Both the position numbers and the translations under genes were made by a program. A stretch of DNA of 64,000 nt. Source: a virus. The notes beneath the pieces were generated by a model, which was not told where the DNA came from, did no database searches, and was given only the letters and a program-made list of their open reading frames with translations. Of the stretch, positions 1 to 44,393 are shown piece by piece (within the stretch, counting starts at the first letter, position 1; each line of letters starts with the position of its first letter). The stretch is taken from IMG/VR virus record IMGVR_UViG_3300009103_000004, positions 1 to 64,000 of that record; one strand, given 5' to 3'.

Positions 1-308
1 TTCGTTCCATAGTAGAACTCGGTGTCGGCTGAATCACCAAACGGAATGCTCTTGGCACCCTTTGAATCGGGCTCCATGTCTTCGATCATAACCGGGCGGT
101 CATGTTCTGGAACACGGTCAAGCATGTCATTTGTGACAGTCTTCGGCGCTATAATGTTTCTGGCGAAGCCATCTTCCCGGATTCTACGGCGGATCATGTT
201 TGAACCGGCAGTAGAGGCGGACTTGATGTTACCTTCGTCAGCATCGCTAATTGCATCGATGATTTCCTTATTCAGGACATCGATATTTACTTCTTGAGAA
301 TCACTCAT
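1..308 (-). CDS. Major capsid protein, N-terminal part (runs off the window edge)
   Basis: An open frame starts at ATG 306-308 and continues past base 1, giving 102 residues of the N terminus. After an acidic first 28 residues it carries N-I-K-S-A-S at residues 27-32, then a basic segment (MIRRRIREDGFARNII) followed by LDRVPEHDRPVMIEDMEPDS and GAKSIPF. A basic helix, then a proline/aspartate segment ending in 'EPDS..A..IPF', is what I recall from the N-arm of many HK97-fold phage major capsid proteins; this is a recalled pattern, not a search result. Its place beside capsid-surface candidates and a prohead protease fits. The K-x-A-S motif at residue 29-32 would be a natural delta-domain cleavage point if the protease uses it. 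It could instead be another head protein, since the fold core lies outside the window. Confidence 0.6.
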   Translation of the reverse strand, partial: MSDSQEVNIDVLNKEIIDAISDADEGNIKSASTAGSNMIRRRIREDGFARNIIAPKTVTNDMLDRVPEHDRPVMIEDMEPDSKGAKSIPFGDSADTEFYYGT

Positions 309-335
309 CTTATTTGTTTTCCTGGTTTTTAATTG

Positions 336-968: not shown

Positions 969-1060
969 AATTTATAATCTCCTTGAATTAATTTTGTATG
1001 AGAGGTTATTTGGTAATGAACCTAGTACGACGATTCTCGATTTAGCGATTGAAAGTTATA
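969..1060 (-). other. 92-base spacer between the two paralogues
   Basis: No reading frame or terminator hairpin is evident here. The minus-strand sequence is A/T-rich and ends with AAGGAG 9 bases before the start of the 210-residue gene. It is the longest gap in the left 25 kb, so it could hold a late promoter or an RNA processing site for high expression of the capsid genes, but no consensus element can be identified by eye. Confidence 0.3.
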
Positions 1061-1954: not shown

Positions 1955-1985
1955 AATGTTTTACTCCAATTGTTTTGATCTTAAA

Positions 1986-2381: not shown

Positions 2382-2385
2382 GTCA

Positions 2386-2562
2386 TCAAGAGGGTCTTGC
2401 TATTGACGGGTATCCCGAATATCCGGCTGGTTTATGGGCAGGACTGGCTTCCCTGTTGGGGCTGGTCTTTACAGCCGCTTCCTTGGTAGCTTTTTCAGCA
2501 GCTTCCTTGGCAGCAGCTTCCTCAGCAGCCTTTTTCTTAAGTGCTTGTCCTTTCTTACCCAT
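2386..2562 (-). CDS. Short Lys/Ala-rich peptide
   Basis: 58 residues from ATG 2560-2562, chosen over a start 48 bases upstream because GGGGAA lies just before it and it overlaps the preceding gene's end by only 8 bases. The first 35 residues are an Ala/Lys/Glu helix (MGKKGQALKKKAAEEAAAK), the rest is Pro/Ser-rich. It is highly basic. Function is not recognisable; its place between two scaffold-like genes suggests a minor head component or DNA-compacting peptide. Confidence 0.45.
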   Translation of the reverse strand: MGKKGQALKKKAAEEAAAKEAAEKATKEAAVKTSPNREASPAHKPAGYSGYPSIARPS

Positions 2563-3766
2563 TCTGTTGTTCCCCAGTTTGAGTTTCACCATAAAGACGA
2601 GGATCATCAAGCCAGCTAGCAGCCTTTTCGATTTCAGCTGATGCCATCTTCATTTCTTCAGCAAGCTCGGGAGGAACTTCTCCGCCGCCCATCATAGCTT
2701 CTGGTGGCATTCCACCTTCTGCACCTGGGGGCATTCCGCCTTCCATTCCGCCACCGGCACCAGCCAGCTCAGCAAGAATAGCTTCAGCAAGTTGTGGATC
2801 AAGCTCACCTGACTCAACCATGGCCATCACGATCTCAGCAATTTCTTCAATGCTAATATCTTCGCCATCGTTGCCTGGGATCATCCCGTCACCTTCGTCA
2901 GCAGCTGCAGCAGCGGCTTCAGCTCCTGCGTCGTAAGCTTGTTTTTCGAAGTCGTACTCAAAGCTGTTAATAGCTTTAGTGTGAACAGCAGCCATCTTTT
3001 CCATGCTGTTAACGTCTGCTTGTGTAGCAGTAGAAGCAATCTTTTGAACGTACTCACTCATTTCAGCTTGTTGTTGAGCTACTTGAGCTTCATGCGCACC
3101 AAGTTCTTCAGCCTCACTAATTAATTGCTCTGCAGCTTGTTTTCCAAGCTCCTTATCAGCTAGCGCGTCCAACATCTCACGACCTTCTTGATAACCTAAT
3201 ACCAAATGCGCTATCTTTCTATAAGCGTCAGGCTCAAGGTCAAAATCAGAAGCAACCTGCTCCGCAGACTTTTGCTGTTGTTGCGGAACATCAACTTCTG
3301 TGCCATGTTGCTCTACAGCATCACTTTCACTTTGTCCTACAGTTGCATCTGTAGCTTGCTTGCCCATCAAACGTGCTTTGATACGCTCTGCAAGTGAGAG
3401 ACCTTGTTGTGCAACCTTTGCAGTAACAGGATCATCAACAGATTCATCTTTCTTTTGTTGTGTCTTGTCTGCAGTCACATCAGTGGTTTCACTTTTGCCG
3501 GGAGCTTTCCCGGAAGCTTCTCCTTTATTTCCGTCGTTCTTCCCTTGTCCGGGAATATTGTTTTCGGCGGAACCGTCTGTGTTAGTAGCAGAAACTGCTT
3601 CTGGCGGGACTACCATCTTAGAAGCGTCATCCCCATCATCCTTAACAAAATCGGGTGGCGTTGTTTCCTGCGGATCTTGCTCTGATGGCATGTCCGATGC
3701 TTTCTTCTCCGTGTAGTACGAAGAGATACGAGTTTTTAGTTCATCCAAACTTAGTATGTTATCCAT
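2555..3766 (-). CDS. Acidic scaffold-like internal head protein
   Basis: 403 residues, strongly acidic, with low-complexity segments: Asp/Lys/Ser/Pro-rich to residue 120, Gln-rich to 230, then Ala-rich helices, and a Gly/Met/Pro/Glu-rich stretch (GGGMEGGMPPGAEGGMPP) near residues 345-375. It has at least seven K-x-A sites (TEKKASD at 19-24, then AKVA, QKIAST, MEKMAA, EKQAYD, MKMASA, EKAASW). No enzyme motif is seen. Position directly after the prohead protease and before the capsid genes is where tailed phages keep the scaffold/core protein, and multiple protease sites are what a scaffold destined for degradation would show. The scaffold assignment is inference. Confidence 0.5.
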   Translation of the reverse strand: MDNILSLDELKTRISSYYTEKKASDMPSEQDPQETTPPDFVKDDGDDASKMVVPPEAVSATNTDGSAENNIPGQGKNDGNKGEASGKAPGKSETTDVTADKTQQKKDESVDDPVTAKVAQQGLSLAERIKARLMGKQATDATVGQSESDAVEQHGTEVDVPQQQQKSAEQVASDFDLEPDAYRKIAHLVLGYQEGREMLDALADKELGKQAAEQLISEAEELGAHEAQVAQQQAEMSEYVQKIASTATQADVNSMEKMAAVHTKAINSFEYDFEKQAYDAGAEAAAAAADEGDGMIPGNDGEDISIEEIAEIVMAMVESGELDPQLAEAILAELAGAGGGMEGGMPPGAEGGMPPEAMMGGGEVPPELAEEMKMASAEIEKAASWLDDPRLYGETQTGEQQNG

Positions 3767-3804: not shown

Positions 3805-5280
3805 TCAAAATTTACGATTGTGACAAGTTAAAATTAATTTATCTTTTTCGTCAATATTAAAATTCCCTCGTTCTTCGCATAGGTGATTTAAGTAAGAAAC
3901 TTTATATAGCCCATACGAATCGACAAGGGTTTGTGCATAAGTTTTTTCATCATCAGATAAGTCTGCATCTGATGCAGACTTAACCCTAGGTTTAGCAGTT
4001 ATTGTTATTTTAATTATTTTAGTTAATCCTGGATTTCCTGACGGCTGTTGAAATTTTTCAGTAGCCTTGTTCATTAATTGTTCAATATCGTCATTAGCAG
4101 ATAGGTCGGAGTTAGACATAAATCTACTGGAAGGGTCAAACATTTTCGATATATCATCAGGTATAGCAGACCCTAGTAAGTTCTGAAACATATTTCCCAT
4201 ACACCCACAAGCATACTTAACCATTGGGCTGGACTCAACTTCGTCAACACTCTTGCCCGTGACATATGATACAAATGCTTTGAATGGCATAACTGATTTT
4301 TTAGAAGCAAGCTTCCTAAATAAAGTGCCGGGTTCGACGGATCGCATTGCTTCCATCTCCTCGTCCGTTACGTCTTCGTTATTAAAAATACTCTCCGATG
4401 CGTATTTAACAAAATTATATTTTTCATCTCTAGCTACATCGCTTCCACCAAAGACATCGTTTATATACTGCTCCTCGTTTGCCAGCTTTTCTAAAATTTG
4501 TTGGCGTCGAGGATTTGAAAACCCGAGAGCATTGGGTATACATACACCTTCGGCCCTAGCAAGTTCATCACTATATATAATACTAGGAGCTGAAGCAGCT
4601 TTCTTTAGATCGTCTGAAAATCCGTAGTCTAGGTAGTGCGCTATGCGGTCAGCGGGATTAGCTACTCGGGATATGTCAAAAAACGTGGGTTTGTCGTTAA
4701 TAGCATACGCGAACTTTTGAAACTCAGGTACGAACTGATTCATTCTGTTCTTGAGATGCTCGCAATAATTAGCGGACTTGGTTGCCTTGTTGTCGCAAAC
4801 GTTGCAGATATCGTATGGAACTCTTGCAGACATGCTGAAGCTTAATGCTTTACCTTCCTTAGCAAGACCATACTCCTCTTCAGCTTTTTCCTTATCCCCA
4901 TGTATTACTAACTCTATTCGTTTCATCTCCGGGTTGTAAGCCGAAGCCTTTACTATACCTAGAGCTTTTTTGGGGTCTCTGTTATTATGCTCTCTGAAGA
5001 AGTGTCCATGAGAAACAAAAGTGTTGTGGTATTTTTGATTTGCTTCCTTAGGCCAGAAGTCCCCATTTCTGTTTTGCCCATAAGTCTCGCCGTCACCCAT
5101 GGCAATCAAGTGCACCATGAAGTTCTTATCGTCAGGCATATTGTCACGAAGTAAATTTTCAGTTACACAAGAGGAAGAGGCTTCTTTGATATGAGACTCA
5201 CCCTCTACCAACGTTACTATTCTACCTGCAGCTTTTAGCAGTTCTTCTTGATCTATTTCAGGATGGTGTACTTTAATCAT
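3805..5280 (-). CDS. Prohead maturation protease
   Basis: 491 residues. The N-terminal 200 residues carry the signature I recall from phage prohead serine proteases of the T4 gp21/S80-like type: NRNGDFWP at 70-77, a His in VSHGHFFREHNN (H91 or H93, with H98), and a candidate nucleophile Ser in ALSFSMSARV (S147/S149/S151), corresponding to the usual 'GVSMG' block. A Cys/His cluster follows (C159, C162, C173, H175), also seen in some of these enzymes. Such proteases act inside the prohead, cutting scaffold, capsid N-arms and packaged proteins. The protein contains many K-x-A-S copies (IKEASS at 31-36, then KKAASA, VKYASE, RKLASK, VKSASD), consistent with self-cleavage. It overlaps the downstream start of its upstream neighbour by one base (TAATG). 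Confidence 0.65.
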   Translation of the reverse strand: MIKVHHPEIDQEELLKAAGRIVTLVEGESHIKEASSSCVTENLLRDNMPDDKNFMVHLIAMGDGETYGQNRNGDFWPKEANQKYHNTFVSHGHFFREHNNRDPKKALGIVKASAYNPEMKRIELVIHGDKEKAEEEYGLAKEGKALSFSMSARVPYDICNVCDNKATKSANYCEHLKNRMNQFVPEFQKFAYAINDKPTFFDISRVANPADRIAHYLDYGFSDDLKKAASAPSIIYSDELARAEGVCIPNALGFSNPRRQQILEKLANEEQYINDVFGGSDVARDEKYNFVKYASESIFNNEDVTDEEMEAMRSVEPGTLFRKLASKKSVMPFKAFVSYVTGKSVDEVESSPMVKYACGCMGNMFQNLLGSAIPDDISKMFDPSSRFMSNSDLSANDDIEQLMNKATEKFQQPSGNPGLTKIIKITITAKPRVKSASDADLSDDEKTYAQTLVDSYGLYKVSYLNHLCEERGNFNIDEKDKLILTCHNRKF

Positions 5281-6788
5281 TATTTATACCCTCTTATACT
5301 CCCCTTAACTCTATTTACTATGGAGTCATCTATAACTCCTTCGTCACGAAGCGCTATAGAGGATTTCATTTCAGCTTCGCTAACACCTGTAATTTGAGCT
5401 ATATCTTCCCATGTCGGGTTGGTTTTATATCTGCTCTTCCAAGCTTCTACAGCAGCATCGTAGTTTGCCAAATTATATATGTGCATGCCACGCTTGTTAC
5501 CTGCTGTCTCTTCATAAAGATGACCAAGACCTTGTATACCAGTCATTGTTGCTACAGGTGCAATTCCTTTTCTGAGTGCTAGAAGCTTTCTCAAATTTCC
5601 AACACCGCCCAAAGCATCTCCACGATAGCCCAAGAAGTTTCGCAACCGAGCTCCGGTTGTGCTAAGTCTACCGTGACCAGCCTCGCCCATCAACCTTGCA
5701 ACATCACCATGGCTAAGTTTATTAGATCGAAGTAAACTGTACGCAGCCTGGGTGTTATTATTTAGGAGAGCGCTCGTACCAACATTATTTCTCCACCCCG
5801 TGCCAGGGATAAAGGATTCTCCTCTTTGCCCTGCTATGTTTTGCGCTAAGTGACTAAAAAATGGAAGTGGTTTAGAGATCCCGGGAAAGCCTGCTGATCT
5901 GCGTTCTAAAGGACCCATTTTACTCATAACCTTATCAAACAAAGCTGATTGTTTCCTATACCTATCAACAACATCGTTTATAGCCGCTCGTGGATCATCT
6001 CTAAAACTAGTCAAGAATTTACTCTCATTGAAGCCCATGCCCTTGGGCATAAATTTGAACTTTCCAGAAGTGGGGTCGAAACCCTGTGACTGCATCAATG
6101 CACTTGTAACCCCTCCGTGAGAACCTGCAGCATAACTATTATTAAACAACTTAGGCATATTACTTTTAGCCATATCGCCAAACCGCTCAAGCTGAGCCTT
6201 CCTCCAAGCATCACTTATGCCTGTATTCTTAAGCAGCATCAACCCCGGTATTCCAAGTGATGCAGCGTTAAACACTGGATTTAAAGCGTTACCTTGAAGC
6301 CACCGACCCTCGCCAAAAGGATTGATGTTCATATCCGTAAATTCAGCTACGGGGTTCTGGTACATGTTAACAGCGTTCCCGACACCCCCAAGTGGATCCG
6401 CTCTGTTATACTCTTTAGCGTATCCGCTTGGTCCTGACTGCAAACCTTTAATGAGTTTTGCAATACTGTCAGGCAGCCTATCATCTTTTGCCTTCCCGAG
6501 CCCCATCAAGTACTGACCTGCAGCTGGTAACGATCCGACTGCAGCACCCATGCCAGAACCTAAAAGCCCTTGCCTCAGTATCCTACTCCTACGGTCTTCT
6601 TCTGACTCCCCTTCGACATCTTTCCTGGAAGCCATATATGAGCTCAAGCCACCGCCAACTGCACCAACTCCCAACGCACCTGTAAGCCAAGTACGCAATG
6701 GATCTTGAAACCAACCGTCCTCAGCCGCTAAGGCCGAAGCTATGTCCTTGGCACCTCCTGTGGGGCCATCTTCAGCTTGCTTTTTCAT
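5280..6788 (-). CDS. Internal/ejection-type virion protein with Gly-rich membrane segments
   Basis: 502 residues. It begins MKKQAED, a K-x-A motif at residues 3-5. Two hydrophobic Gly/Ala-rich segments lie near the N terminus (LTGALGVGAVGGGLSSYM and LLGSGMGAAVGSLPAAGQYL) with a charged loop between them, followed by about 400 residues rich in Asn, Gly and Arg without recognised motifs. The segment pair resembles the one at the C terminus of the 457-residue protein at 36143-37516. Proteins of this sort in large phages are often packaged and inserted into the host envelope during DNA ejection; that role is inferred. The family is not recognised. Confidence 0.55.
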   Translation of the reverse strand: MKKQAEDGPTGGAKDIASALAAEDGWFQDPLRTWLTGALGVGAVGGGLSSYMASRKDVEGESEEDRRSRILRQGLLGSGMGAAVGSLPAAGQYLMGLGKAKDDRLPDSIAKLIKGLQSGPSGYAKEYNRADPLGGVGNAVNMYQNPVAEFTDMNINPFGEGRWLQGNALNPVFNAASLGIPGLMLLKNTGISDAWRKAQLERFGDMAKSNMPKLFNNSYAAGSHGGVTSALMQSQGFDPTSGKFKFMPKGMGFNESKFLTSFRDDPRAAINDVVDRYRKQSALFDKVMSKMGPLERRSAGFPGISKPLPFFSHLAQNIAGQRGESFIPGTGWRNNVGTSALLNNNTQAAYSLLRSNKLSHGDVARLMGEAGHGRLSTTGARLRNFLGYRGDALGGVGNLRKLLALRKGIAPVATMTGIQGLGHLYEETAGNKRGMHIYNLANYDAAVEAWKSRYKTNPTWEDIAQITGVSEAEMKSSIALRDEGVIDDSIVNRVKGSIRGYK

Positions 6789-8287
6789 TACGGAGCTATA
6801 CGCATCCCGTCAGGTCCTTTGGATCCTTCGTAGGATCTTTCTTGAACAGCCTGCGTATTCCATTTCGATTTTTGTAATGTTTTCTCGGCCTCCACAAGTT
6901 GCGCCAAGTCCGGCGCTGCAATACCGTCATATTGTACCGCACTTCTTAAAACGACACGCATAACATTTTTATCTTTTGCTAACTCGGGAGCAACTTCCTT
7001 TACTGTGTTGTAAAGATCGACTACCTTGTCTTCATCCTCTTCAGATAGTATAGGGTCTGTTATCAAAAGATCTTGTATCAAAGTTACATACTTAGCTTCG
7101 TCCAGCTCTCTGTCTATAAGCTCTTGTTCGGTGTTTCGCTTTGGTGCTATAAGGCTTAAAAAATCCTTGCCCTTTGCATGCATCTTTTCCAAAGCTTGCG
7201 GGAAACTTCCACCAGCGCCAAGACCTCTCCTGACTCCATGTAGCGCACTAGGTATTGTGTTCAGTAAGTTCCTGCCATCTTCTTTTAGTGCCCCCTCCAT
7301 TCTCTCTAAACCTATTTCTTCTCTTATCCCCGGGAGTTCGGCATCTGGGTAGGACGCATCCCATTGAGCATCCGCTATCTCACTTGCATCCAAGTCAAAC
7401 TCGCTTACTCTTTTATCTACTGGGTCCCCAGACTTTTTCTTGGGCTTCTTTTTCTTTTTTTTTTCGCTTACAGGCCTGCCAAGGTGGTCAAGTACAATAG
7501 CCTGCTTCTTCAGGTAATCTTCCTTGAAGTCCTCAGCCATGTGCTTTCCATTCAAGTTGTCTTGTATAGAAGCAAGCTTGGTAAGCAAGCTAGTGTCATC
7601 GAGTAACCTACGAGGACCTTTATCTTCAGCGCGGGACACAGGGTAACCGATGCCAGTCATGTATCCTGCTAAATAATCACAAGCTTCTTTAACGCAGTCA
7701 CCGAAATAGTATTTGGCGTCTTGCTCTAAATTCGTGTAATTAGTTTCGTTGTACGAGTCTCTGATATGATCGGAAATTTCTGAAGCTAACTTCCTATTAT
7801 CCTCGACCATGTCGAAGATAAGCTGGTCTGCCTGTTGTTCGTTTGCAAGGGCTACAGATGCTTTTTTCCAAGACTGCCGCCTATCACTTGCCATTTTAAT
7901 CTCCTGGTAGTCATCTATGGACTCGAGAGAATTAAAATCATTAAGGTCTATCTCTTTTTCAAACAAGTCTGAAAACCTTCCAGAAGATAGGCTTGAGTAA
8001 TCATTGTTTTCGTATTCGTGATCTCCCGCTTTCTTCTCTGTATAAACCTCTACCATCTTGGGTACATCCAAAACATCAAATGTTTCTCCACGCCCCTTTT
8101 CTTCAGAAGCGCACTTGTCTAGGTACGTCACTGTCTTGGCTGTGTTATAAACGTGCCCCAGCTTCTCTAGAAGCGCAGGTGCCAAGTTTTTCTTGTTGGC
8201 AAACTTAAGCATCGTATCTTTCACATTTCCAGATTTTTTAATCTCTGGCAAAAGTTCTTCAAACCAACTTACTAACTTTTCATTCAT
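6788..8287 (-). CDS. Virion-module protein with K-x-A-S sites, function unknown
   Basis: 499 residues, mainly charged helices. At least five K-x-A sites are visible (TEKKAGD, IKMASD, WKKASV, RKLASE, TKLASI), all in the first half, then a run of lysines near residue 280 (SEKKKKKKPKKKSGD). Two thirds of the protein is acidic and helical, with no enzyme motif. It lies between two other likely virion proteins and shares one base with the next gene. It may be a packaged or core protein cut into several fragments. Family not recognised. Confidence 0.5.
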   Translation of the reverse strand: MNEKLVSWFEELLPEIKKSGNVKDTMLKFANKKNLAPALLEKLGHVYNTAKTVTYLDKCASEEKGRGETFDVLDVPKMVEVYTEKKAGDHEYENNDYSSLSSGRFSDLFEKEIDLNDFNSLESIDDYQEIKMASDRRQSWKKASVALANEQQADQLIFDMVEDNRKLASEISDHIRDSYNETNYTNLEQDAKYYFGDCVKEACDYLAGYMTGIGYPVSRAEDKGPRRLLDDTSLLTKLASIQDNLNGKHMAEDFKEDYLKKQAIVLDHLGRPVSEKKKKKKPKKKSGDPVDKRVSEFDLDASEIADAQWDASYPDAELPGIREEIGLERMEGALKEDGRNLLNTIPSALHGVRRGLGAGGSFPQALEKMHAKGKDFLSLIAPKRNTEQELIDRELDEAKYVTLIQDLLITDPILSEEDEDKVVDLYNTVKEVAPELAKDKNVMRVVLRSAVQYDGIAAPDLAQLVEAEKTLQKSKWNTQAVQERSYEGSKGPDGMRIAP

Positions 8288-19502: not shown

Positions 19503-19722
19503 TTTTCTTTTTCTTTTTAGGTGAATCATCTATTACACCCTTACCTTGCGAGTCAGAAAGTAAATGAGCGAGTATAGCATTGATTCCATAGAGTCCAGCA
19601 AGTCCTCCAACACTACCTAAGCCCCAAGCCATAGGGTTATCACTACGCCAAAAACTTTCGTCTGGAGGTCTGTGAGGATGCGCACCATCCAGCTCTGGAG
19701 TCTGATCTGGATCTTCTTGCAT
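19489..19722 (-). CDS. Small glycine-zipper membrane protein A
   Basis: 77 residues. A Pro/Asp/His-rich N terminus is followed by RSDNPMAWGLGSVGGLAGLYGINAI in two parts (DNPMAWGLGSVGG and LAGLYGINAILAHLL), a Gly-spaced membrane helix, and a Lys-rich tail (DDSPKKKKKNAKS). The same core, DNP.AWG.G.VGGLAGL, occurs in the next gene (19722-20195), so the two share an origin. Glycine-zipper helices often oligomerise in membranes; a pore or ejection role is inferred. Confidence 0.5.
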   Translation of the reverse strand: MQEDPDQTPELDGAHPHRPPDESFWRSDNPMAWGLGSVGGLAGLYGINAILAHLLSDSQGKGVIDDSPKKKKKNAKS

Positions 19723-34523: not shown

Positions 34524-35411
34524 TTAAGTAGGCGGTGTGTTGTCAGGGGCGTCTTCCGCATCAAACGCTCCCCCGGCCCAGGCACCAGCAACACCGCCAG
34601 CACCTGTTCCCAAAAGCGTAAATAAAGCACGACGTTGTCTCTCTTTTCTGGCAGCTTCTTCACGAGCCTTAGAACTTCTAAAGTTAACCACGTTTGGAGT
34701 AAATAGCCCGGAAGTAATGTTTCCAATTAAACCGCCTGCAGTACCACCTGCTAAGCCACCAGCATAAGGAGCAGCTCCTTCAAGCTTTGCGCCTATTTCT
34801 GAAATAGGATCCATTGCTTTTCTTATGCCGTCAAAAAGACCCACATTGTCATCATCACCCCTGATGAGATCACCTATGCTATCTATGTTTTCTTGGAATT
34901 TAGTTCCGCCAGACTCAAGCTGAGAATGAAGCTCAGGAAGTAGGTGGTGTCCAGTACTCAACCCAATACCTCCAAGCATCTTCCCTGCAAGTGGCTTCCA
35001 ATTCGTTACGGGATTTCCGAAAATAGCTCTGCGAGCTCCTGGGTGAGCCAGTCCAACGCCATGGAGTCCACCTATAAGTTTATCAACAAAGTTCGGTTCC
35101 TCGCCTTTATTTTCCTCATCCTTCCAAATATCAGAATACCACTGACCGCCCAGGGGTATGTCAGCGTCATGCATATAGTAGCCGCCACCGGCACCTTGTA
35201 ACCCATGCGTACCCATCTGCAGACGTTTAAGTGTAGCGGGACTCCACCCACCAGCCCTGGTTGCCATATCACCCCCTCGACCAAACAAGGCATCAACATT
35301 TTTCCAGTTTCTTCCAGAACGCAAAGCAGACCAAAGCCTTGCTAGTTTACCAGGATCTGCTGCGGACTTTACAAATGGTAATCGATCCAATTTTTCAGAT
35401 AAGGTCTCCAT
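34524..35411 (-). CDS. Internal/ejection-type virion protein with Gly-rich membrane segments
   Basis: 295 residues. The K-x-A motif is at residues 13-18 (FVKSAA). Two Gly/Ala-rich hydrophobic segments lie near the C terminus (YAGGLAGGTAGGLIGNITSG and LFTLLGTGAGGVAGAWAGGA), separated by a basic stretch, with an acidic last part. The motif position and segment style match the proteins at 24479, 36143 and 37513. It is likely a packaged protein entering or crossing the host membrane. Family not recognised. Confidence 0.5.
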   Translation of the reverse strand: METLSEKLDRLPFVKSAADPGKLARLWSALRSGRNWKNVDALFGRGGDMATRAGGWSPATLKRLQMGTHGLQGAGGGYYMHDADIPLGGQWYSDIWKDEENKGEEPNFVDKLIGGLHGVGLAHPGARRAIFGNPVTNWKPLAGKMLGGIGLSTGHHLLPELHSQLESGGTKFQENIDSIGDLIRGDDDNVGLFDGIRKAMDPISEIGAKLEGAAPYAGGLAGGTAGGLIGNITSGLFTPNVVNFRSSKAREEAARKERQRRALFTLLGTGAGGVAGAWAGGAFDAEDAPDNTPPT

Positions 35412-35435: not shown

Positions 35436-36146
35436 TTACTCTGGAAGCGCAATCACTTTATTGGCCAAGTCTTTGGCTGACAACCACTCGTACTTTCCAG
35501 TGCGTGAATTTTTGAATCGTTGGTATATATTACCATCGCTTCCGAGCTTGGCTCCCCAAGCAATTCTAGTATCAACTCCAATACGTTCAGACTCAGGTCC
35601 TTCTATTGCAGAGAGGAACATAAATTCTGACGGGTGAAGGTTTTGTGCATCCTCTGTAATGGATGTAGAACTAGGTAAACCACCAGGTCCCATTTGAGAA
35701 ACCCGCCTAGCCTGCTCTGTGAGATGCATTGGGTTTATCTCCTCAAGAGCCAGGGACAATGGATTACCAGTAATTAACTTTTCCGAATACTTGTTAAAGT
35801 GGCCAGGAGCGATGCTGTTGAGATTTCCCATTCTGGATATCCTACGAACAGTGTTTCGCATCAGCTTCTCAGCATCCATGTCTATGCGCTCACGCAATAG
35901 TTTGTCAGGACCATACACCTTCCTGAACCTAAGAGAGTCGCGTTCGTCCGGGTCAACTAGGCCACGATTAATTGCCAGAACCTTTTCGGTAGCAGACAAT
36001 ATAGTGTCCACTCCACCATCTATCTCATCATCAGGGTCTTCGTCGTCGTACTTAAAGCTAGTAGTTGCAGCCTGCTTTTCATACTGAGACTCGATAGCCA
36101 TTAGCACAAAGTCATCTATGCTATCATCTTCTTCGGAATAACTCAT
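35436..36146 (-). CDS. RNA polymerase beta subunit, middle (rifampicin-region) part
   Basis: 236 residues. Residues 70-157 follow beta: DERDSLRFRKVYGPDKLLRERI (compare 'DDIDHLGNRRIR..GE..'), NPLSLALEEINPMHL (compare 'QNNPLSEITHK') and RRVSQMGPGGL (compare RRISALGPGGL). Residues 171-191 (HPSEFMFLSAIEGPESERIG) correspond to '[20 protein letters not shown]', and the end WLSAKDLANKVIA corresponds to 'YLSA.EE..YVIAQA'. The protein stops exactly where 20808-24482 resumes beta. The Glu-Thr-Pro-Glu core is altered. The K-x-A motif is at residues 24-26 (YEKQAA), just before the homologous region. So beta is in three genes. It overlaps the upstream gene by ATGA. Confidence 0.75.
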   Translation of the reverse strand: MSYSEEDDSIDDFVLMAIESQYEKQAATTSFKYDDEDPDDEIDGGVDTILSATEKVLAINRGLVDPDERDSLRFRKVYGPDKLLRERIDMDAEKLMRNTVRRISRMGNLNSIAPGHFNKYSEKLITGNPLSLALEEINPMHLTEQARRVSQMGPGGLPSSTSITEDAQNLHPSEFMFLSAIEGPESERIGVDTRIAWGAKLGSDGNIYQRFKNSRTGKYEWLSAKDLANKVIALPE

Positions 36147-37516
36147 GTGATGCTCAACGATGAATCTATAAAGTCAGATTTTGCATTTGATGAACCGTAC
36201 TGGTAACCGCCTAAGCCACCAAGTGCAAGACCTCCCATACCGCCAAGTAAATAGTTTGGAGTTCCTAACTCATCTTCTGCATCCTCTTCACTTATACCAT
36301 TTCTCTTAGCATAGTTAGAAACTCTGTTCTTATGAAGTAAGTATTGACCACCAACTCCCAACCCCGATCCTAGTATACTACCGTACAGCCCGCCACGCAG
36401 TCCCTCTCTAGGTATAGCATCCAAGCCAGAATTAATAGATTTCTTCCAATCATCAGTAATTTCATTGAATGTGTTCTTTGCCATTGCAAGTGCTCGGGCA
36501 TCTAAATCTGCCTTAGCTGCATCTACATCCGCGTTATGTTGATCTGTAGCGTCAATAATTTCATTTTGTTTGTCTTGGAGGAAAAGGTTATTAGCAACGT
36601 TTACAGCCTTGTTGGCTTCGTTGATGGCGCGCCCCTGCATGACGCCTGCTGTGCCAAGTACCATACCAGTCACGGGGTTCCAAAAAGTAGTTCCCAGCTT
36701 TTTACCTAAAGCGGGAAGACCAAACTGAGGCCCACTCATAAAGCCGGGTTTTGCAAGGCGGCGAAGGAAGTTACCTACGAAGCCTGTACGACCCTCAGGA
36801 AACAATGTGTTAAAAAAACTGATGTTTGTAGGTTTGTATGTGTTAGGCCCACTAAATATTCCACCATCACCCTTGCTCTTAGTACCAATTCTAAACTCAT
36901 CAGGAAGTATCCTGAGTCCCATCTTATCCTTAATACGACCCAAGCCATGCTTTAGGTTACTATACCAACTCAGAGGGTTTGCGGTAAATTTAGGCCGAAC
37001 GGGGTTGTGTCTTACAATATTACTTGACTGGCCTGGGATAACATTGGGTGAATTAGATGAGCCAGACAATCCAGACCTATGCAATGGATCATTTGGGTTT
37101 GATTTCATTTCCCTGGGATTTTTTTTACCAGTTAGCTTACCCCCCGTTCTAGATCTAGCTGCAAATGTACCGTCATCGGCCTTCTGCAATACAACCCTAG
37201 ATCTATGGCCCATACCTGGGAAACTCCCAGGAGCTCCCATAGTTGCTGGTGTGTGAGTTTCAACACGACGAACAACCTTGGGCCCTACACGGTTCTTTGC
37301 TGCAGTCCTAAAAGTATCTATGGGATGAAGTAGACTCCTGAAACTTATTGGAGTCCTAGCTATGCCGAGAGCCCTGCGACCTAAATTGGTGTTGAAGATA
37401 ACGTCACGACTTACACGCCCTGGCTGTTTGACGAAATCCCAAATCCCGATTTTGGCCTGCTTCTCAATTCCGTAAATCGGATCTCGTAACGCAGCTATCT
37501 TCTGCTCTAGAGTCAT
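36143..37516 (-). CDS. Internal/ejection-type virion protein with C-terminal Gly-rich hairpin
   Basis: 457 residues. The K-x-A motif is at residues 17-21 (IEKQA). The first 280 residues are basic, Pro/Asn/Gly/Arg-rich and probably extended. A helical, Asn/Asp/Ala-rich region follows (INEANKAVNVANNLFLQDKQ), then two Gly-rich hydrophobic segments (GLYGSILGSGLGVGGQYLL and YLLGGMGGLALGGLGGYQYG) joined by a charged loop. The hairpin resembles the N-terminal one in 5280-6788. It overlaps its neighbours by 4 bases on both sides, consistent with fixed-ratio synthesis. A DNA-ejection role is inferred. Confidence 0.5.
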   Translation of the reverse strand: MTLEQKIAALRDPIYGIEKQAKIGIWDFVKQPGRVSRDVIFNTNLGRRALGIARTPISFRSLLHPIDTFRTAAKNRVGPKVVRRVETHTPATMGAPGSFPGMGHRSRVVLQKADDGTFAARSRTGGKLTGKKNPREMKSNPNDPLHRSGLSGSSNSPNVIPGQSSNIVRHNPVRPKFTANPLSWYSNLKHGLGRIKDKMGLRILPDEFRIGTKSKGDGGIFSGPNTYKPTNISFFNTLFPEGRTGFVGNFLRRLAKPGFMSGPQFGLPALGKKLGTTFWNPVTGMVLGTAGVMQGRAINEANKAVNVANNLFLQDKQNEIIDATDQHNADVDAAKADLDARALAMAKNTFNEITDDWKKSINSGLDAIPREGLRGGLYGSILGSGLGVGGQYLLHKNRVSNYAKRNGISEEDAEDELGTPNYLLGGMGGLALGGLGGYQYGSSNAKSDFIDSSLSIT

Positions 37517-38550
37517 TGCGGTGGCGGCGTAGGTTGAACTGGTTGAACTGGTTGGACGGGGTCAACTTCTGGTGGATCTTCATATTCCGGATCCAATACT
37601 TTATGGAATCCTACATCAGCTAAGTGCTTGGGTATATTCGACATGAAATTACTAACGGCGGGAATTGCACTAAACGCATGGTTCATGTTGTCAGTTGCAG
37701 TCTGCCTGTAATCGTCAAAGTTCCTAGCAGTTAAAATGTCTTGCTGGCTCTTTGGCATTTGGCTGAAAGCAATTGCTGCCTGCGCCTGATCTAGCTTACC
37801 AGCATCCGGTTTAATCTTGAGATAGTTTTCACGAGCATCATTATATCTATTAGCGTTAGTAAGAGCCCAATTAGCCTTACCTATTAAGGTGCTAGTATCG
37901 TGCTCAGGATATTCTGGCACATCAAGTTCTGGCATTTCCTTAAACCCAAGCGCTGTTGTTGGGTTGTCCATAAAATTAGCTAAACCAGTTCTGGCGTTAC
38001 CCACTGCGTCTGACAGCTTGGTTTTTATAGTGTTTCCAGCTGCAGCAATATTGTCTTGTTTGTTATCCAGGATTGGGTTTCCTGTAATTCTGTTAACAGT
38101 ACTGGCAAATGTGTTAGCGCTGTTGACCTTATCTGGAAAGTCAGAAGCAGCTATCATATTTTGCCTGCTGACAGGCATATTGTTAAAATCGTTAAATGCT
38201 TTCCACGCACGGCCAAAATCAAACCCCTCGTCAGGATTTAACTTTCTATAATTCTGATAGGCATCCCAGTTACGCTTTATTCCTTCGAGACCTCCGACTT
38301 TGTCTAAAAGCCATCCGCCGCCACCTAACACTCCCAATGTTCCCAATGTTCCCAACATGGAACTCTTACCACCCATTATCCTGTTTAGTAACAAAGATAA
38401 ACCGCCAGCACCAAGGCCCCCAGCTAGGTAAGGATTGTTTCCTGCCCACCCACCAAGTTGCTTAAGTAGGGAAGAGTTAGTACCCTCTAAAGCAGCACGC
38501 TTAACTATACTATCCAACACAGCACGTTCTCTGTTAGGAAGATTAGACAT
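37513..38550 (-). CDS. Virion protein with Gly-rich membrane hairpin
   Basis: 345 residues. The K-x-A motif is at residues 15-19 (IVKRA). A Gly/Leu-rich hydrophobic hairpin follows (NPYLAGGLGAGGLSLLLNRI and MLGTLGTLGVLGGGGWLLD). The rest holds two similar modules of about 100 residues (ALTNANRYNDARENYLKIKP after AWKAFNDFNNMPVSRQNMIA) in which 'AF..MP.SQQ.ilaA..F.' recurs, suggesting an internal duplication. The C terminus is Pro/Gln/Val repeats (PVQPVQPVQPTPPPQ). It is probably a packaged membrane-active protein. Family not recognised. Confidence 0.5.
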   Translation of the reverse strand: MSNLPNRERAVLDSIVKRAALEGTNSSLLKQLGGWAGNNPYLAGGLGAGGLSLLLNRIMGGKSSMLGTLGTLGVLGGGGWLLDKVGGLEGIKRNWDAYQNYRKLNPDEGFDFGRAWKAFNDFNNMPVSRQNMIAASDFPDKVNSANTFASTVNRITGNPILDNKQDNIAAAGNTIKTKLSDAVGNARTGLANFMDNPTTALGFKEMPELDVPEYPEHDTSTLIGKANWALTNANRYNDARENYLKIKPDAGKLDQAQAAIAFSQMPKSQQDILTARNFDDYRQTATDNMNHAFSAIPAVSNFMSNIPKHLADVGFHKVLDPEYEDPPEVDPVQPVQPVQPTPPPQ

Positions 38551-38586: not shown

Positions 38587-41037
38587 TTATTGCTTTGTAC
38601 TGGATTCGGAATCAGGTTGATTATTATCCGTGTAGCACTTTGCTACATCCTCATCCGTAACGCGGATAATATTGATGCTATCCGCATCACTATCCAATAA
38701 CTTATAATACCGATGCCTACCGTCAATAATATCATTATTCTCATCAACCAATATAGGCTTAGTTGTATCAGCTTCTTCATAACGTTTTGATCCGAAGCCT
38801 GTGCGTTTGCTTCGGTTAGCCCCATTTGTAGAAAGACGTTCTAGAGCTATAGACTCAGTATCTCTACCCCCCACCAGATCAATTAATTTTATTATATCTA
38901 CTTCGTGACCGTTCTTTAGAGTCTTGGTGTGCAGGTGCACATTCTCTGCTTCTGGATTTTGGCGGTACTTACCTTTACGAGCATACTTTATTGTATTCTC
39001 TACCCACGCATCGCACGTGTTGTCTTTAACGCAACTAAAGTTAAACGCATTACAATGACCAACGTTAGTCCTATGTTGGCAAGTCCCACAAGTCTTATCT
39101 GGAGATTCAGAAGGACGATAATTAGGAGCTTCCAAGTTTATAGCAGCACCCTCTATAGAAGCCGCTGCCTTTGTGTCATCCAACCCTAGTATACCCATAG
39201 CTTGATCCCTGATATCAACTTGCGACTCATCTTTGATATCCAAGTCAGCCACAACATGCTTTGGGAGATGCAATCTAAATCCAGTGGGTGAGTGAGTAAC
39301 TCCAACAATACCTTCCTCACGAGTAGTTATAACAAAATCCTTAGGATTCTTATTCATTAAAGTACGCAACCGAACTTGCTTGTGGTGGTACTGCTTGTTG
39401 TCAGATTCATTCTTGGCCTTGATTAATTCGTCTAGAGCAGATCCCGGTTCCACTGCGGAGCTCTTCCTACGCTCCTCCTCCTCTTCAGCTTCCTGTGCAG
39501 CAAGCTCTTCCTCTTCTTCAAGACGTGCAAGCTCCTCATCAGTAAGTTCATGGGCACCATATATTTTCTTCTTATGACGAAAAGCTGCAGAGATAGGGTT
39601 GAACATAGCTTCCTTCTCATCAAATCTTTCTCTCTCTGGGTCCACTGCACCCATCTTGGGCATCATGGATTGTTCGGGCATTCCCATTTCGGGTTGCTGA
39701 GGCATTCCCATTTCGGGTTGCTGTTGCATCATGTCCTGCAACGGAGGTTGTTCAGGTATCTGCTGTTGCGGAAGACTTTGCCTTATTCTACCAAGAACAC
39801 GTTCGCGCTCTTGCTCTAAACGCTCCTGATCAGCACGATCCTTAATATCATGGAATTTATCCTGCAGCTTATCCTCTGCCTTTATCTTCTCCACATGTTT
39901 CTTGTTCTGGTGCTTTAGATCCTTTGTAACTTTCTTTGTCTTAATGGCCCTCTCAGTCTTCTGCTTATTATGCATATTTTGCATAACTTGCTTAACAACA
40001 GCATGCGGGTCGAGCTGACCACTCTCATTAAGCAAATCAGCGTTAAGTCCCTGTATCTCCAGCTTCTTCCTGCGTACCTCTAGGTCACGCTTAAACTCTG
40101 CCTGCTCTTGCTTTTTCTTAGCCTTGTCTTCCAGCTCCTGACGCTTCTGGTCCCACTTAACGAACTCCTCGGAATTTTGAGCCATTGAAAAAGGCTGTTG
40201 TGGAGCAGCAGGAGCCTGAAACCCAAACTTCCTCCAAACTGACGCAGCCTTTTCATTAAATAAATTAGGGAGTGTTCGCTCAACAGAAGACTTTGAAAGT
40301 TTAGTTAACTGTAGAGCATTCCTGACTGCAGTAACTTTATCCTCCCTGGATGCATCGGGATCCCCATTCCTAACAAGTTTACTGTATGCCTTATCCAGTA
40401 CCCTAGAGTCATACTTAGCCTTGTTAGCCTGTAGAACTTCAGGCCCCCACCTAAGCTCAAGGTCATCATCCGGTACTCCTATATCATGCAACAATGAATA
40501 CAAACGAAGAGAAGCTTGGTCTATATCCATTTTGTAAAGAGAGGTCTCTGGCTCTAATCTCAACCTGTAAGATTTACCAGTACCACGCTTTGCATTGATA
40601 TGAGCCTCGATCTCTCCAGATTCTTTTTTACGAGTGTATATGCCCGAAGATAGGCGGGCTTGATTTAATGTTACATACTCATTCCCATTATGTATCATGG
40701 TCCCACGATCTGTAACGTAGGGAACACGCATTAACGTAACTTTCTTTTTCTCTATAAGTCCGCCCTGATCTCTGTCGTAAAGGCTGAACGTTCCACGCAA
40801 CCTGTTACCAAGAAATTGATTTTTCATCAGGGCATTCTTCTGCTGTACAAGATCGTACTCTCCCTTATCAGCATAATGAACGTCATCAAGCTCCAGACGA
40901 TACTTTCCGTACTCCTGTGGAAAGCGTTTCTTAAATCCCTCAGCTACAGAGTTGAATGTGTCTTCCCTAAGTGCTGAGAAATCATCTAAGTCTCTAAGCC
41001 TAACTCCTGTAGGTACTATGTCTCCTTTTCCTATCAT
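38587..41037 (-). CDS. RNA polymerase beta N-terminal part fused to coiled coil, Cys cluster and ParB-like domain
   Basis: 816 residues. Residues 75-255 match the beta N-terminal lobe: VTLMRVPYVTDRGTMIHNGN (compare 'IPLMTDNGTFVINGTERVI'), LNQARLSSGIYT (compare 'VSQLHRSPGVFF'), AKRGTGKSYRLRLEP, DIDQASLRLYSLLHDIGVPD. Directly after comes NEKAASVW (K263-S266), a candidate protease site. Residues 270-560 are charged coiled coil and Met/Gln/Pro-rich linker. A Cys cluster (C650, C653, C662, C669, C675) follows, then a ParB/sulfiredoxin-like block with VDENNDIIDGRHRYY near 765-779. The fusion is unusual; if cut at 263, the polymerase lobe and the ParB-like half would separate. Beta continues in 35436-36146. 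Confidence 0.82.
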   Translation of the reverse strand: MIGKGDIVPTGVRLRDLDDFSALREDTFNSVAEGFKKRFPQEYGKYRLELDDVHYADKGEYDLVQQKNALMKNQFLGNRLRGTFSLYDRDQGGLIEKKKVTLMRVPYVTDRGTMIHNGNEYVTLNQARLSSGIYTRKKESGEIEAHINAKRGTGKSYRLRLEPETSLYKMDIDQASLRLYSLLHDIGVPDDDLELRWGPEVLQANKAKYDSRVLDKAYSKLVRNGDPDASREDKVTAVRNALQLTKLSKSSVERTLPNLFNEKAASVWRKFGFQAPAAPQQPFSMAQNSEEFVKWDQKRQELEDKAKKKQEQAEFKRDLEVRRKKLEIQGLNADLLNESGQLDPHAVVKQVMQNMHNKQKTERAIKTKKVTKDLKHQNKKHVEKIKAEDKLQDKFHDIKDRADQERLEQERERVLGRIRQSLPQQQIPEQPPLQDMMQQQPEMGMPQQPEMGMPEQSMMPKMGAVDPERERFDEKEAMFNPISAAFRHKKKIYGAHELTDEELARLEEEEELAAQEAEEEEERRKSSAVEPGSALDELIKAKNESDNKQYHHKQVRLRTLMNKNPKDFVITTREEGIVGVTHSPTGFRLHLPKHVVADLDIKDESQVDIRDQAMGILGLDDTKAAASIEGAAINLEAPNYRPSESPDKTCGTCQHRTNVGHCNAFNFSCVKDNTCDAWVENTIKYARKGKYRQNPEAENVHLHTKTLKNGHEVDIIKLIDLVGGRDTESIALERLSTNGANRSKRTGFGSKRYEEADTTKPILVDENNDIIDGRHRYYKLLDSDADSINIIRVTDEDVAKCYTDNNQPDSESSTKQ

Positions 41038-41039
41038 AA

Positions 41040-44000
41040 CTAGTTTACTGGGGGAACTTCTTCGTTAACCTGACCCTGTACTTGTTCATCAAATAAATCT
41101 CCATATGCTTTTGAGTTATCGTTAGCTTCTCCTATTTCTCGTGCAAGATTGTGTATAGTATCGATTGCGCCATCCTCTTGAAGATTTACACTGGGGCTTA
41201 CAGGGTAGCTATTTTGAGGGCCGAAGCGTGGGCGCTCAAACTTTGGCTGAATCATATTCTTAGGATGGTCTTTTATATTTCCAACCGGTTTTCCGTCATT
41301 ATATTTCGGATCCCTCATCAACCTCTCGTACGGCAGAGCCATGTCATTAGACATGCCAACCCCGCTACTACCACCAGCGTCTACGGAAAAGTTAGCACCT
41401 TCCGGATTCCAGGTGCGATTTTTGTGCAGCTCTGCTCGGGCGTTCGCTTCATCCTCGGCTTTATACTTAGCTTTTTGTGCCTGAGATACGAAGTCAACAC
41501 CTCTGTGATCAGTTTGAAACGTTTCATACGGGAAAAATTGCCCACCTTGAACCATACCAGTGTTTGGGTCCCAAGGAGCAGCAAAGTTATACGTGTTCAA
41601 CTGCTCGTCAGAAAACCCTTCAACATTTTTAAGGTATTCGTATTCTTGTGGGCCCATAAAGTAGCCAGTTCGAGAGTGAGGCTTAAGATCGACATACCTA
41701 CCATCCTCACCGTACGGTACTTTCGTAGGATAAAATTGGTCACGCAGATCGGTGTACTTGAACGTGTGACCTCCGCCCATCGTCGCGCCAGTAGAAATGC
41801 TGCCATCAGCTTCCCTATACTGATAGGGAAAATGCCCTCCCTGATATGCTGAGTCATTCCCACCAGGAAGTTCGCTAAGTGGAAGGGTTCCACGTCCACC
41901 AGGATCGTAATCAGTAAGTGGATGCCCTTGCTCGATAGTATCGCGCCCAGAATCGGTTAAGTTACCGTCTGCATCCAAAAAGCCTCGTTGGATAGAGTCC
42001 TCAGGGTTACTACGCATATATTCCTCCGTCCACACTGGTGTCTCAGTATCTATACCAATACTGTTAGCTCCACCGCCCAGTCTCCCGCCACCCTGAAGTG
42101 CTCCTATTGCACTAGGACCACGGGATATATAATTACCGCTACCGTCTGGTATGGGAGTACCAACGGCCATATTAAAACCGTCGTCATTTCCATAAGCCTG
42201 TATGTGTTGGGCTCTATATCGCTCAACATCCGCTGGAGTAGCAGAAGAATAGCCACTGCTATGACCAGCGTGAATGTTAAACATTTTTCTTAATCCTTGT
42301 GTAAGAAGTGGATCCCTCATGGTACCATCCGAAGTAAACGTGGGGGAGGCAGCGGGGGTACCCACTTGATCTGCCCAAAAAGTACCTATGGCCCCTTTTT
42401 GTAAATTGCTCATGGGAACTCTAGTGCCAGATGAAGGTAGCCAACTCTGAGGAATGACCTTCCCACCACCTCTTTTGATGGCCTGTGTAAATGCACCACC
42501 GGCGATGGTTGCGTCCACCAGACCCAATCCAATATCCATACTTCCCTGCAACGCAGCTTCGCCAGGAGTGTATACGGCAGTAGTGCCATCTGGATACACC
42601 ACTATTTGCGGGTGTAAATCCCCGGTCTCCTTGCCGCCTCTAAAAAAGTTCCTACCTGGAGCGCCCCAGCTTTCATTAACCTTAGTAGCACCTCCCCAAA
42701 CACCAGCGTTTATAGCCTGGGCCATACCCCCCACGGTGTTTCTGATTCTGTTACCACCACCAATCCTGGGGGCACGCCCAAGAAGGTTGGATTTTTGGTG
42801 AGAAAAAAGACCATTGCCGCCATGTGTGTCACCTGCCAAGGTGAAGAAGTTTGGCGTGCCTTCATTTTTACCCCAAGTATAATTCTCCCACCTTTCCTGC
42901 GGAGTGCGAACAGTTATGGGATCATCCATACTCTCGATCACACCATCTTTAAGAAGTCGCTGCTTTAACGCATAGTGTGGGTTCCAAGCATTTTCAGTAG
43001 GGGCATTAGCCCAAGTCCCGGTCTCATGATCGTACTTTGGCTGTATATAAGGAAGTAAACTTTCTTCCAACGCTTGTCTCTCTTGTACCTTAGCAGCAAT
43101 TTGTTGGTCGATGCCAGCTGCATCGGTAGGGCCCCCGCTTTGTTTGAGGGTTTGCAGCTGAGCTATCTCTTCTGATATCTTGTCAAGTTCCCCACCAGCC
43201 CCCTGCAAAAGCTTCTGGTAATCTTTTTTCCAATAAGAAGGATACATTTTTGTACCTGACGAGCGTTCCCCTGATGGAGCTGGTAAACCATGCTCATCTA
43301 GATTCCAATATTTACCTGGGTCTATTTCTGTTGTGTTGCCTATATTGGCATGACGCCAGCCGCCAGGCTGATTCATCATAGCTGGGTCTAGGTGTCGAAG
43401 TGGTTTACCTTCCCCGTCTAACCTTACATATTCACCGGGTACAATGCTGTTGTGCTCGCCTTGTGTCTTATGGGTCCAGCCATATGGCTGGCCGTATTGC
43501 TCTTGAGGAGGAGTTGCACCACCGCTAAATGTGAGGTCTGCATATTCACCTGTAGGGTTGCCTTCAGCATCAGTGGGTACACCTGAAAACGGGAGCCACT
43601 CACGAAACCTATAAGGTGCACCATCTTTACCCGTAGGTACTATATGTTTGTTCGCTATAGGATAGTAGTCAGGAGACAGCTGCTCTAATATGTGTTTCTG
43701 GATATCGGTTGTACGCATGGGGTCGTAATACCCACCCCCGCCTGGTAAACCAGCCGTAGATTGCATAAAATCTATATCTTCTTCTCCAGGAGTTCCAGTC
43801 GCACCGTACCACGCTGCCGAAGCTGCGTCGTCTATCATATTGGGAATGGAGAATAGCTCCTTATTCCTTTCCTTCCAGTACGCGTCATCTTCTTTTTCCT
43901 TAGCAAGCAGTTGTTTATACTCCCGGTCACCTGCCTCATTAAGCTGTACGTATGTTGGCTTACCCATCTGCTGCGTACTTAATTTCCATAACTTTTCCTT

Positions 44001-44393
44001 GTAGGCAAAGTCCTTAGCAGACATCTTGTCTGGCCAGTCAGGAGGGAAGTTACCAACCTGTATACCATTCTCAGTTGTGATTTCCCTTTGGGGATAAGCT
44101 GGAAGCTTGCCGCCATGGGAGTAGTCTATTTTTGATTTCAGTATTGGTAGTTCTTTTTCTTTTGGAAAGTCCGCTTCTATAGTCTCCTCGCTTACTGGCA
44201 GCATCTCCTTCATAGCTTTTTCATACGAAGGCCACTTTTTTTGTGGGTGTATAACTCTTAGCCGGTCTACCCAGGCAAACTCTTTAGGTGACATGGTGTC
44301 TGGATAACTGTCGTCGTCAACCCATTCACGCGTGTACACTGTACCATTTGGGCGTGTGATCCCAACCATCTTGCCGGCCTTCTTGGTGAGCAT
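41040..44393 (-). CDS. Large Gly/Pro-rich virion protein
   Basis: 1117 residues from ATG 44391-44393, preferred to a TTG at 44474 because a terminator ends only a few bases upstream of that codon. It starts MLTKKAGKMVG, with the K-x-A motif at residues 4-6. The sequence is Gly, Pro, Tyr, Asn and Asp-rich throughout. A tandem repeat of about 36 residues is visible (GWTHKTQGEHNSIVPGEY, then GWRHANIGNTTEIDPGKY). A hydrophobic Gly/Ala segment (LQGSMDIGLGLVDATIAGGA) lies near residue 650. No enzyme motif. Large packaged or tail-lumen proteins can look like this. It is the first gene of the 44.4-33.5 kb unit. Confidence 0.55.
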   Translation of the reverse strand: MLTKKAGKMVGITRPNGTVYTREWVDDDSYPDTMSPKEFAWVDRLRVIHPQKKWPSYEKAMKEMLPVSEETIEADFPKEKELPILKSKIDYSHGGKLPAYPQREITTENGIQVGNFPPDWPDKMSAKDFAYKEKLWKLSTQQMGKPTYVQLNEAGDREYKQLLAKEKEDDAYWKERNKELFSIPNMIDDAASAAWYGATGTPGEEDIDFMQSTAGLPGGGGYYDPMRTTDIQKHILEQLSPDYYPIANKHIVPTGKDGAPYRFREWLPFSGVPTDAEGNPTGEYADLTFSGGATPPQEQYGQPYGWTHKTQGEHNSIVPGEYVRLDGEGKPLRHLDPAMMNQPGGWRHANIGNTTEIDPGKYWNLDEHGLPAPSGERSSGTKMYPSYWKKDYQKLLQGAGGELDKISEEIAQLQTLKQSGGPTDAAGIDQQIAAKVQERQALEESLLPYIQPKYDHETGTWANAPTENAWNPHYALKQRLLKDGVIESMDDPITVRTPQERWENYTWGKNEGTPNFFTLAGDTHGGNGLFSHQKSNLLGRAPRIGGGNRIRNTVGGMAQAINAGVWGGATKVNESWGAPGRNFFRGGKETGDLHPQIVVYPDGTTAVYTPGEAALQGSMDIGLGLVDATIAGGAFTQAIKRGGGKVIPQSWLPSSGTRVPMSNLQKGAIGTFWADQVGTPAASPTFTSDGTMRDPLLTQGLRKMFNIHAGHSSGYSSATPADVERYRAQHIQAYGNDDGFNMAVGTPIPDGSGNYISRGPSAIGALQGGGRLGGGANSIGIDTETPVWTEEYMRSNPEDSIQRGFLDADGNLTDSGRDTIEQGHPLTDYDPGGRGTLPLSELPGGNDSAYQGGHFPYQYREADGSISTGATMGGGHTFKYTDLRDQFYPTKVPYGEDGRYVDLKPHSRTGYFMGPQEYEYLKNVEGFSDEQLNTYNFAAPWDPNTGMVQGGQFFPYETFQTDHRGVDFVSQAQKAKYKAEDEANARAELHKNRTWNPEGANFSVDAGGSSGVGMSNDMALPYERLMRDPKYNDGKPVGNIKDHPKNMIQPKFERPRFGPQNSYPVSPSVNLQEDGAIDTIHNLAREIGEANDNSKAYGDLFDEQVQGQVNEEVPPVN

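Follow-up and report, generated by a model that had tools for sequence, protein, structure and literature searches.

We analyzed a 64,000-nucleotide window, the first 64 kb of the 167,189-bp virus record IMGVR_UViG_3300009103_000004, in which an initial annotation had proposed a shared K-x-A-(S/A) motif of virion proteins as a candidate prohead protease site. Our analysis leads to the conclusion that [L/M]-x-K-x-A is very probably the site that the prohead protease encoded by the phage itself recognizes and cleaves, with a capsid-targeting leader on a subset of the proteins that carry it. Judging from sequence comparison, K-x-A almost certainly marks head protease cut sites: independent relatives carry the motif at conserved processing positions, which supports the cleavage-signal reading of the initial annotation. 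That annotation missed the dedicated N-terminal leader, since most copies lie outside the window. Head genes were identified via Salmonella phage Arash and Vibrio phage D69, and relatives in IMG/VR were collected as 31 loci via a protease alignment and 58 via a capsid alignment. A protease query with one sequence found no relatives; an alignment query including Arash and D69 did recover them. The motif sites located below, and the head and RNA polymerase genes that carry them, lie on the minus strand, as do almost all of the 199 genes called.

Enrichment of the motif in head genes

Observed counts were compared with those expected from within-protein shuffles. Between 1 and 44.5 kb, K-x-A-[SAG] occurred 48 times versus 19.7 expected (z 6.5), [LMFIVYW]-x-K-x-A 52 times versus 22.1 (z 6.7), and the latter with S/A/G next 23 times versus 5.3 (z 7.4). 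When a polar or small residue stood at K-2 instead, K-x-A was found 39 times versus 38.5 expected. The controls A-x-K, R-x-A, K-x-S, K-A, K-x-x-A, and E-x-A showed no excess in the same interval, and plain K-x-V showed a mild one (71 versus 55; z 2.4). Enrichment over a composition-matched background is clear, and the outcome that would have spoken against the initial proposal, no enrichment, did not materialize.

Genes at 44.5 to 64 kb carry [hydrophobic]-x-K-x-A at chance level (6 versus 6.3). The rarity first reported for this part of the window stands, with two copies followed by S/A/G rather than a single fit. Beyond the window, the motif is enriched at 91.5 to 112 kb (18 versus 8.7) and 128 to 138 kb (16 versus 6.9), and it is not enriched in the glycan (64 to 91.5 kb) and replication (138 to 165.5 kb) regions. 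T4-type sites are not enriched in the virion region of the window: [SA].E was counted 138 times versus 151, and [LI].E 150 times versus 130 (z 1.9), no more than in glycan genes (z 2.2).

Position follows the same division. K-x-A lies within the first 40 residues of 42 of 83 virion-type proteins versus 18.8 expected and of 18 of 110 other proteins versus 16.9, in a comparison whose virion-type regions were picked after a first look and in which the leader family contributes part of the excess. All 13 proteins initially listed with an N-terminal copy do have K-x-A in their first 35 residues. In nine of them S/A/G follows the Ala; the products at 5280 (E), 9270 (F), 19722 (E), and 20198 (F) differ. 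Because these four lack S/A/G, the motif is K-x-A plus a hydrophobic residue at K-2, with S/A/G only preferred; the K-x-A of the first proposal is retained, and its correct form is [hydrophobic]-x-K-x-A.

A loosely non-redundant set of 756 open reading frames (ORFs) from relatives gave the same motif. Among 2,000 gapped residue pairs, K-x-A ranked at the top (1936 versus 1222; z 23.5) and L-x-K third. [LM]-x-K-x-A occurred 753 times versus 125 expected and [LM]-x-K-x-A[SAGN] 423 times versus 37, in contrast to L-x-R-x-A, L-x-K-x-S, L-x-K-x-G, L-x-E-x-A, and L-x-Q-x-A, with observed/expected ratios of 0.9 to 1.1; leftover homology inflates z but cannot account for the contrast with these one-residue controls. 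The profile around K-x-A has L/M at K-2, E at K-1, scarce G/P between K and A, and then S/A/E. The full motif is [L/M]-x-K-x-A-[S/A/G/N], and the predicted cut follows the Ala. As a positive control, the T4 head region yielded its known [LI]-x-E (18 versus 6.3) and not K-x-A. In Arash and D69, K-x-A is enriched in the head modules, with little or no enrichment in their tails and in Arash early genes; [LI].E[ASG] is not enriched in the head of either phage (9 versus 8.9 in Arash and 14 versus 14.3 in D69).

The prohead protease and its predicted substrates

The gene at 3805 to 5280 had been described as resembling a prohead protease, and profile and fold searches agree. Its product matches the PHROG 18299 head maturation protease (E 1e-7), as do 15 of 20 relatives, and is 35% identical to Arash gp222. 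For a model of the core (pLDDT [predicted local distance difference test] 77), BFVD contains many prohead proteases of matching fold (E to about 2e-6). By PHROG profiles and this fold search, the enzyme is close to those of phage G (gp19) and Gordonia phage Pupper. The putative catalytic residues H98 and S149 and a CxxC...CxH knuckle are invariant in the protease alignments. The gene adjoins the scaffold-like gene at 2555 to 3766, with the major capsid protein (MCP) gene at 3 to 308. The predicted role of the enzyme is to cut head proteins. No Pfam family could be assigned reliably, T4 gp21 was absent among the BLAST, PHROG, and Pfam matches, and Foldseek of the full-length model was uninformative.

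K-x-A stands at both edges of the protease core. K32-E-A34 (5179 to 5187) is the predicted N-terminal self-cut, and K-x-A is present at residues 26 to 32 in 31 of 31 relatives. K227-x-A229 (4594 to 4602), the predicted C-terminal self-cut, comes right after the predicted catalytic core and its last conserved motif; it is invariant in 24 proteases and present in 20 of 20 rows of a second alignment, almost always with L or M at K-2. AlphaFold2 orders roughly residues 35 to 210, the stretch between the two sites.

The window encodes the N-terminal 102 residues of the MCP, which is cut by the contig end (42% identity to Arash MCP gp226, E 1.6e-14; 58 IMG/VR relatives). K29-S-A31 (216 to 224) is its predicted propeptide cut. 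This K and A are the only invariant residues among the first 33 in 42 distinct MCPs, and the patterns used in the capsid search lay downstream of them. The scaffold-like protein (2555 to 3766), counterpart of Arash gp223 and of its D69 equivalent, has 11 K-x-A, seven with a hydrophobic residue at K-2, in line with the seven or more copies first noticed; one, K21-K-A23 (3698 to 3706), lies near the N terminus. The scaffold-like genes of Arash and D69 have 6 and 10 K-x-A-[SAGT], respectively. A head protein at 6788 to 8287, weakly matching Arash virion protein gp221 (E 8e-4), has nine K-x-A (four with hydrophobic K-2), and the virion protein at 10037 to 12415, a homolog of Arash gp218, has eight, including K10-N-A12 near the N terminus.

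The motif also recurs at RNA polymerase junctions. Arash gp206 is a fusion of beta with the N-terminal part of beta-prime; here its counterpart is split over three genes, starting at 38587, 35436, and 20808. Homology of the beta N-terminal part (38587 to 41037) to gp206 ends at residue 261, where K263-A-A265 (40243 to 40251) stands. The beta middle segment is a separate gene (35436 to 36146) in which residues 44 to 236 match gp206 263 to 469, and K24-Q-A26 (36069 to 36077) lies before that homology resumes. The third gene (20808 to 24482; Rpb2_6 and Rpb1_2, two segments matching gp206) joins the beta C-terminal part to the beta-prime N-terminal part, and K846-A-A848 (21939 to 21947) in its linker (residues 707 to 859) is the predicted subunit-separating cut. 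All six distinct fusions whose junction could be read have hydrophobic-x-K-x-A in the linker (VMHKEA, GITKKA, DFTKQA, QFSKQA, LLKKA, and YIDKAA), although the surrounding linker sequence otherwise differs. The beta-prime C-terminal part is encoded at 13561 to 15399 (Rpb1_5, E 1.6e-20; Arash gp216, E 2.7e-62).

These genes make up a multisubunit RNA polymerase of the packaged type, with beta in three genes and a 153-residue linker to beta-prime in the last. The long C-terminal extension of the 38587 to 41037 product has at its end a "DGRHR" segment that is ParB/sulfiredoxin-like and weakly matches PHROG 17560.

A shared N-terminal leader

Unrelated proteins begin with a leader that ends in K-x-A, of the MNNKEKYYLVKxA type in this genome (10 genes) and MNKYLEKIA in relatives (108 proteins). 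Within the window, MNNKEKYYLVKLA (9999 to 10037) heads the protein at 9270 to 10037, and the same type is present on at least nine further genes beyond it. M-x-N-K-E-K-Y-x-L-V-K-x-A or close variants are found in this gene, in genes at 105.6 to 109.9 kb, and in two others. Pairwise comparison of nine close copies gave 131 synonymous versus 71 non-synonymous codon differences. The residues K, E, K, Y, L, K, and A are constant; non-synonymous changes are limited to three positions, including P2, and the DNA downstream of the leader is 29% identical among the nine copies. The leader peptide is under selection: its codons diverge and the peptide stays constant.

The equivalent leader in relatives is M(S/T)NKYLEKIA. 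Under a strict reading, a DNA pattern for NKYLEK[IV]A matched 52 contigs and was N-terminal in 38 (108 distinct proteins). Thirty-one of these 38 contigs are independently found MCP/protease relatives, versus 0 of the 14 with non-N-terminal matches only; the leader is almost confined to contigs carrying the same capsid/protease type. Up to eight leader genes occur in one relative's 20-kb locus. Exact NKEKYxLVK gave only chance matches in IMG/VR, and that spelling is therefore private to this lineage. As expected of a capsid-targeting sequence, the leader is a short N-terminal peptide common to unrelated proteins and ends in the protease motif. Signal-peptidase or lipobox cleavage was ruled out because the leaders have no hydrophobic stretch. 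A Pfam search of ten leader-array and neighboring proteins returned only a sub-threshold S21 match.

Arash gp217 (a helicase; 1148 spectra), gp96 (816), and gp242 (550) are abundant in purified virions by mass spectrometry (MS) (PMC10585845). The leader proteins with Arash homologs match these three families; a further match, to Arash gp216, was an internal fragment and was discarded. Judged through the Arash homologs, leader carriers of three families would be located in the virion. Coverage values in the Arash MS table were left unused, since one reads about 90% for a 965-residue protein with two unique peptides.

We propose that head precursors would co-assemble with the scaffold and a protease zymogen in the prohead, and that the protease would cut after the Ala of K-x-A. 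It would release itself at K32-E-A34 and K227-x-A229, chop the scaffold into pieces, remove a short capsid N-terminal propeptide by cutting after A31, trim internal proteins, and part beta from beta-prime of the packaged RNA polymerase. The leader, 9 to 13 residues on small unrelated proteins, would direct these into the prohead core and then be removed at K-x-A, probably as is the T4 capsid-targeting sequence. We consider it somewhat likely that the leader is a self-contained packaging tag throughout an unclassified phage family, such that any protein headed by [N-K..[YFW]-L-x-K-x-A] would be loaded, trimmed, and injected, giving a large, fast-changing injected set, and that the same protease cuts the beta/beta-prime fusion inside the head to mature the virion RNA polymerase.

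Several leader-array proteins encoded at 105572 to 112113 share a second segment after the leader, basic and proline rich ([VI]P[RK]xxPKxRPKPK), which also occurs inside the products of 109888 to 112113 and 92762 to 93571 after an internal LVKxA and is possibly DNA binding. HEMMH, an HExxH-type metallopeptidase signature, is present in the leader-bearing protein at 107275 to 107820.

Alternative explanations, known systems, and further motif sites

Some results weigh against K-x-A being a protease site with a packaging leader. Among Arash proteins, an N-terminal K-x-A-[SAG] is carried by 8 of 68 detected by MS versus 4 of 137 undetected (P = 0.022), a modest difference obtained after many motif and threshold combinations were tried, and plain K-x-A is not enriched among the detected proteins. 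A modest pooled signal is expected if tail proteins are not substrates. No shared leader was seen in Arash or D69, and packaging of Arash gp217 without one indicates that the leader is not obligatory. Among distant phages with related proteases, E3 lacks the motif and Myrna has weak K-x-A with hardly any S/A/G/N next, showing that the K-x-A code does not reach all related proteases. The protease model had no significant Foldseek match in the PDB.

An alternative explanation for the conservation could be that K-x-A is a docking motif, itself uncut, that ties precursors to the scaffold or the protease. In its favor, copies are numerous in the scaffold, the leader together with hydrophobic-x-K might fold as a short helix, and the motif counts and residue profile fit binding as well as cutting. 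We consider docking improbable, however, since the strict Ala, the S/A/G/N that follows, and the few P/G at P2 form a protease subsite-like pattern, and sites that flank the protease core on both sides, or lie in linkers between subunits, suit cuts better. Cutting by a host enzyme, or by another protease of the phage, is very improbable: the sole head protease found sits in the head cluster and bears the motif at the edges of its own domain, and the head protease family co-occurs with the motif. Least credible, and largely refuted, is the idea that the excess arises from shared ancestry or from the composition or coiled-coil nature of head proteins rich in K and A; the scaffold-like and 2386 to 2562 products are K/A rich and some homologs remain in the relatives' ORF set, but reverse and one-residue control motifs stay at chance, leader codons diverge around a constant peptide with unrelated downstream parts, and the tail and early genes of these phages have little or no excess.

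Cleavage by the phage's own prohead protease has precedents. In T4, the scaffold is cut, the capsid N terminus is removed, and the shared N-terminal targeting sequence of small internal proteins is cut off (PMC3012670; PMC5694885); this sequence is the only conserved part of diverse internal defense proteins (PMC3012670). Cleavage after Glu is common to the prohead proteases of T4, phiKZ, 201phi2-1, and SPN3US (PMC5694885), so that a K-x-A specificity would be new although its logic is known. The likeness to T4 gp21 and the capsid-targeting sequence of IPI, IPII, and IPIII lies in scaffold and capsid processing and in a short shared N-terminal leader. The MKTYQEFIAE-A start of T4 ipII and ipIII resembles the relatives' MNKYLEKIA in length and layout; the alignment of M, Y, E, I, and A in register is suggestive only. 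T4 cuts at [L/I]-x-E, whereas the site here is K-x-A. T4 has three internal proteins, beside which Alt is counted; here one genome has at least 10 leader genes.

With phiKZ, 201phi2-1, and SPN3US, the similarities are giant-phage head maturation, a packaged multisubunit RNA polymerase, motif repeats in propeptides, and a C-terminal self-cut of the protease (PMC5694885; PMC10052503). SPN3US propeptides are mostly 111 to 254 residues long, versus a predicted 5 to 35 here, and its protease self-cuts at the C terminus, whereas cuts at both ends are predicted here. The N-terminal 30 residues of P1 DarB suffice to bring a reporter into the head (PMC9024508); unlike here, no shared leader was found among the P1 Dar proteins. 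Bacillus phage G gp19 is a related protease (27.6% over about 205 residues), and the G head region has a K-x-A excess (13 versus 5.1), but the N terminus of its MCP lacks K-x-A-[SAGT]. Arash and Vibrio phages D69, D181, and D148 have homologous MCP, protease, RNA polymerase, and portal and use the same K-x-A code; they differ in that no multi-gene leader was seen and beta is one chain with the beta-prime N-terminal part rather than three genes. The portal gene here, recognized by Arash homology, lies beyond the window at 135334 to 137148. The main text of the Arash paper mentions neither cleavage nor a protease (PMC10585845). In the open-access literature, to which the search was confined, we found neither the leader nor a head protease of K-x-A specificity described.

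If true, sequence alone would have revealed a new head-protease specificity, in a phage family that is very diverse and mostly uncultured. Packaged proteins and their trimming would become predictable in the same way; the products of hundreds of anonymous genes could then be predicted to be internal or injected, which would yield an ordered list of candidate anti-defense effectors. It also predicts a maturation route for the packaged RNA polymerase and offers a 9-residue tag testable for protein delivery by phage heads. The approach of ranking every gapped residue pair in head genes, controlled with T4, could serve for other phage groups too.

Further motif copies lie near the N termini of other products. 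As had been noticed, some carriers have one copy only: K3-Q-A5 (6774 to 6782) of 5280 to 6788, K11-K-A13 (20157 to 20165) of 19722 to 20195, and K17-R-A19 (38494 to 38502) of 37513 to 38550. Other sites are K19-S-A21 (20699 to 20707) of 20198 to 20761, K15-S-A17 (35361 to 35369) of 34524 to 35411, and K19-Q-A21 (37454 to 37462) of 36143 to 37516. K30-S-A32 (25856 to 25864) belongs to the virion-region protein at 24479 to 25951, where a GNAT acetyltransferase domain at the head of the protein overlaps it. K19-K-A21 (44376 to 44384) belongs to the product of 41040 to 44438, whose N terminus, MTNKDKYNLFKVG, is a degenerate leader copy.

Beside the capsid gene, 336 to 968 and 1061 to 1954 encode two paralogs (MATYxKGVLRDxPRxNVxRGY), possibly decoration proteins. 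HELGH, another HExxH-type signature, occurs in the virion-region protein at 12479 to 13561. The sole capsid relative in bacterial or archaeal genomes sits in an archaeal metagenome-assembled genome bin, on a 3.2-kb contig too short for a host assignment. At 64 to 91 kb of the record lies a long series of short genes resembling sugar-nucleotide, glycosyl-, and sulfotransferase-like enzymes, several of which, by eye, begin M-I-S-H-K-H-K.

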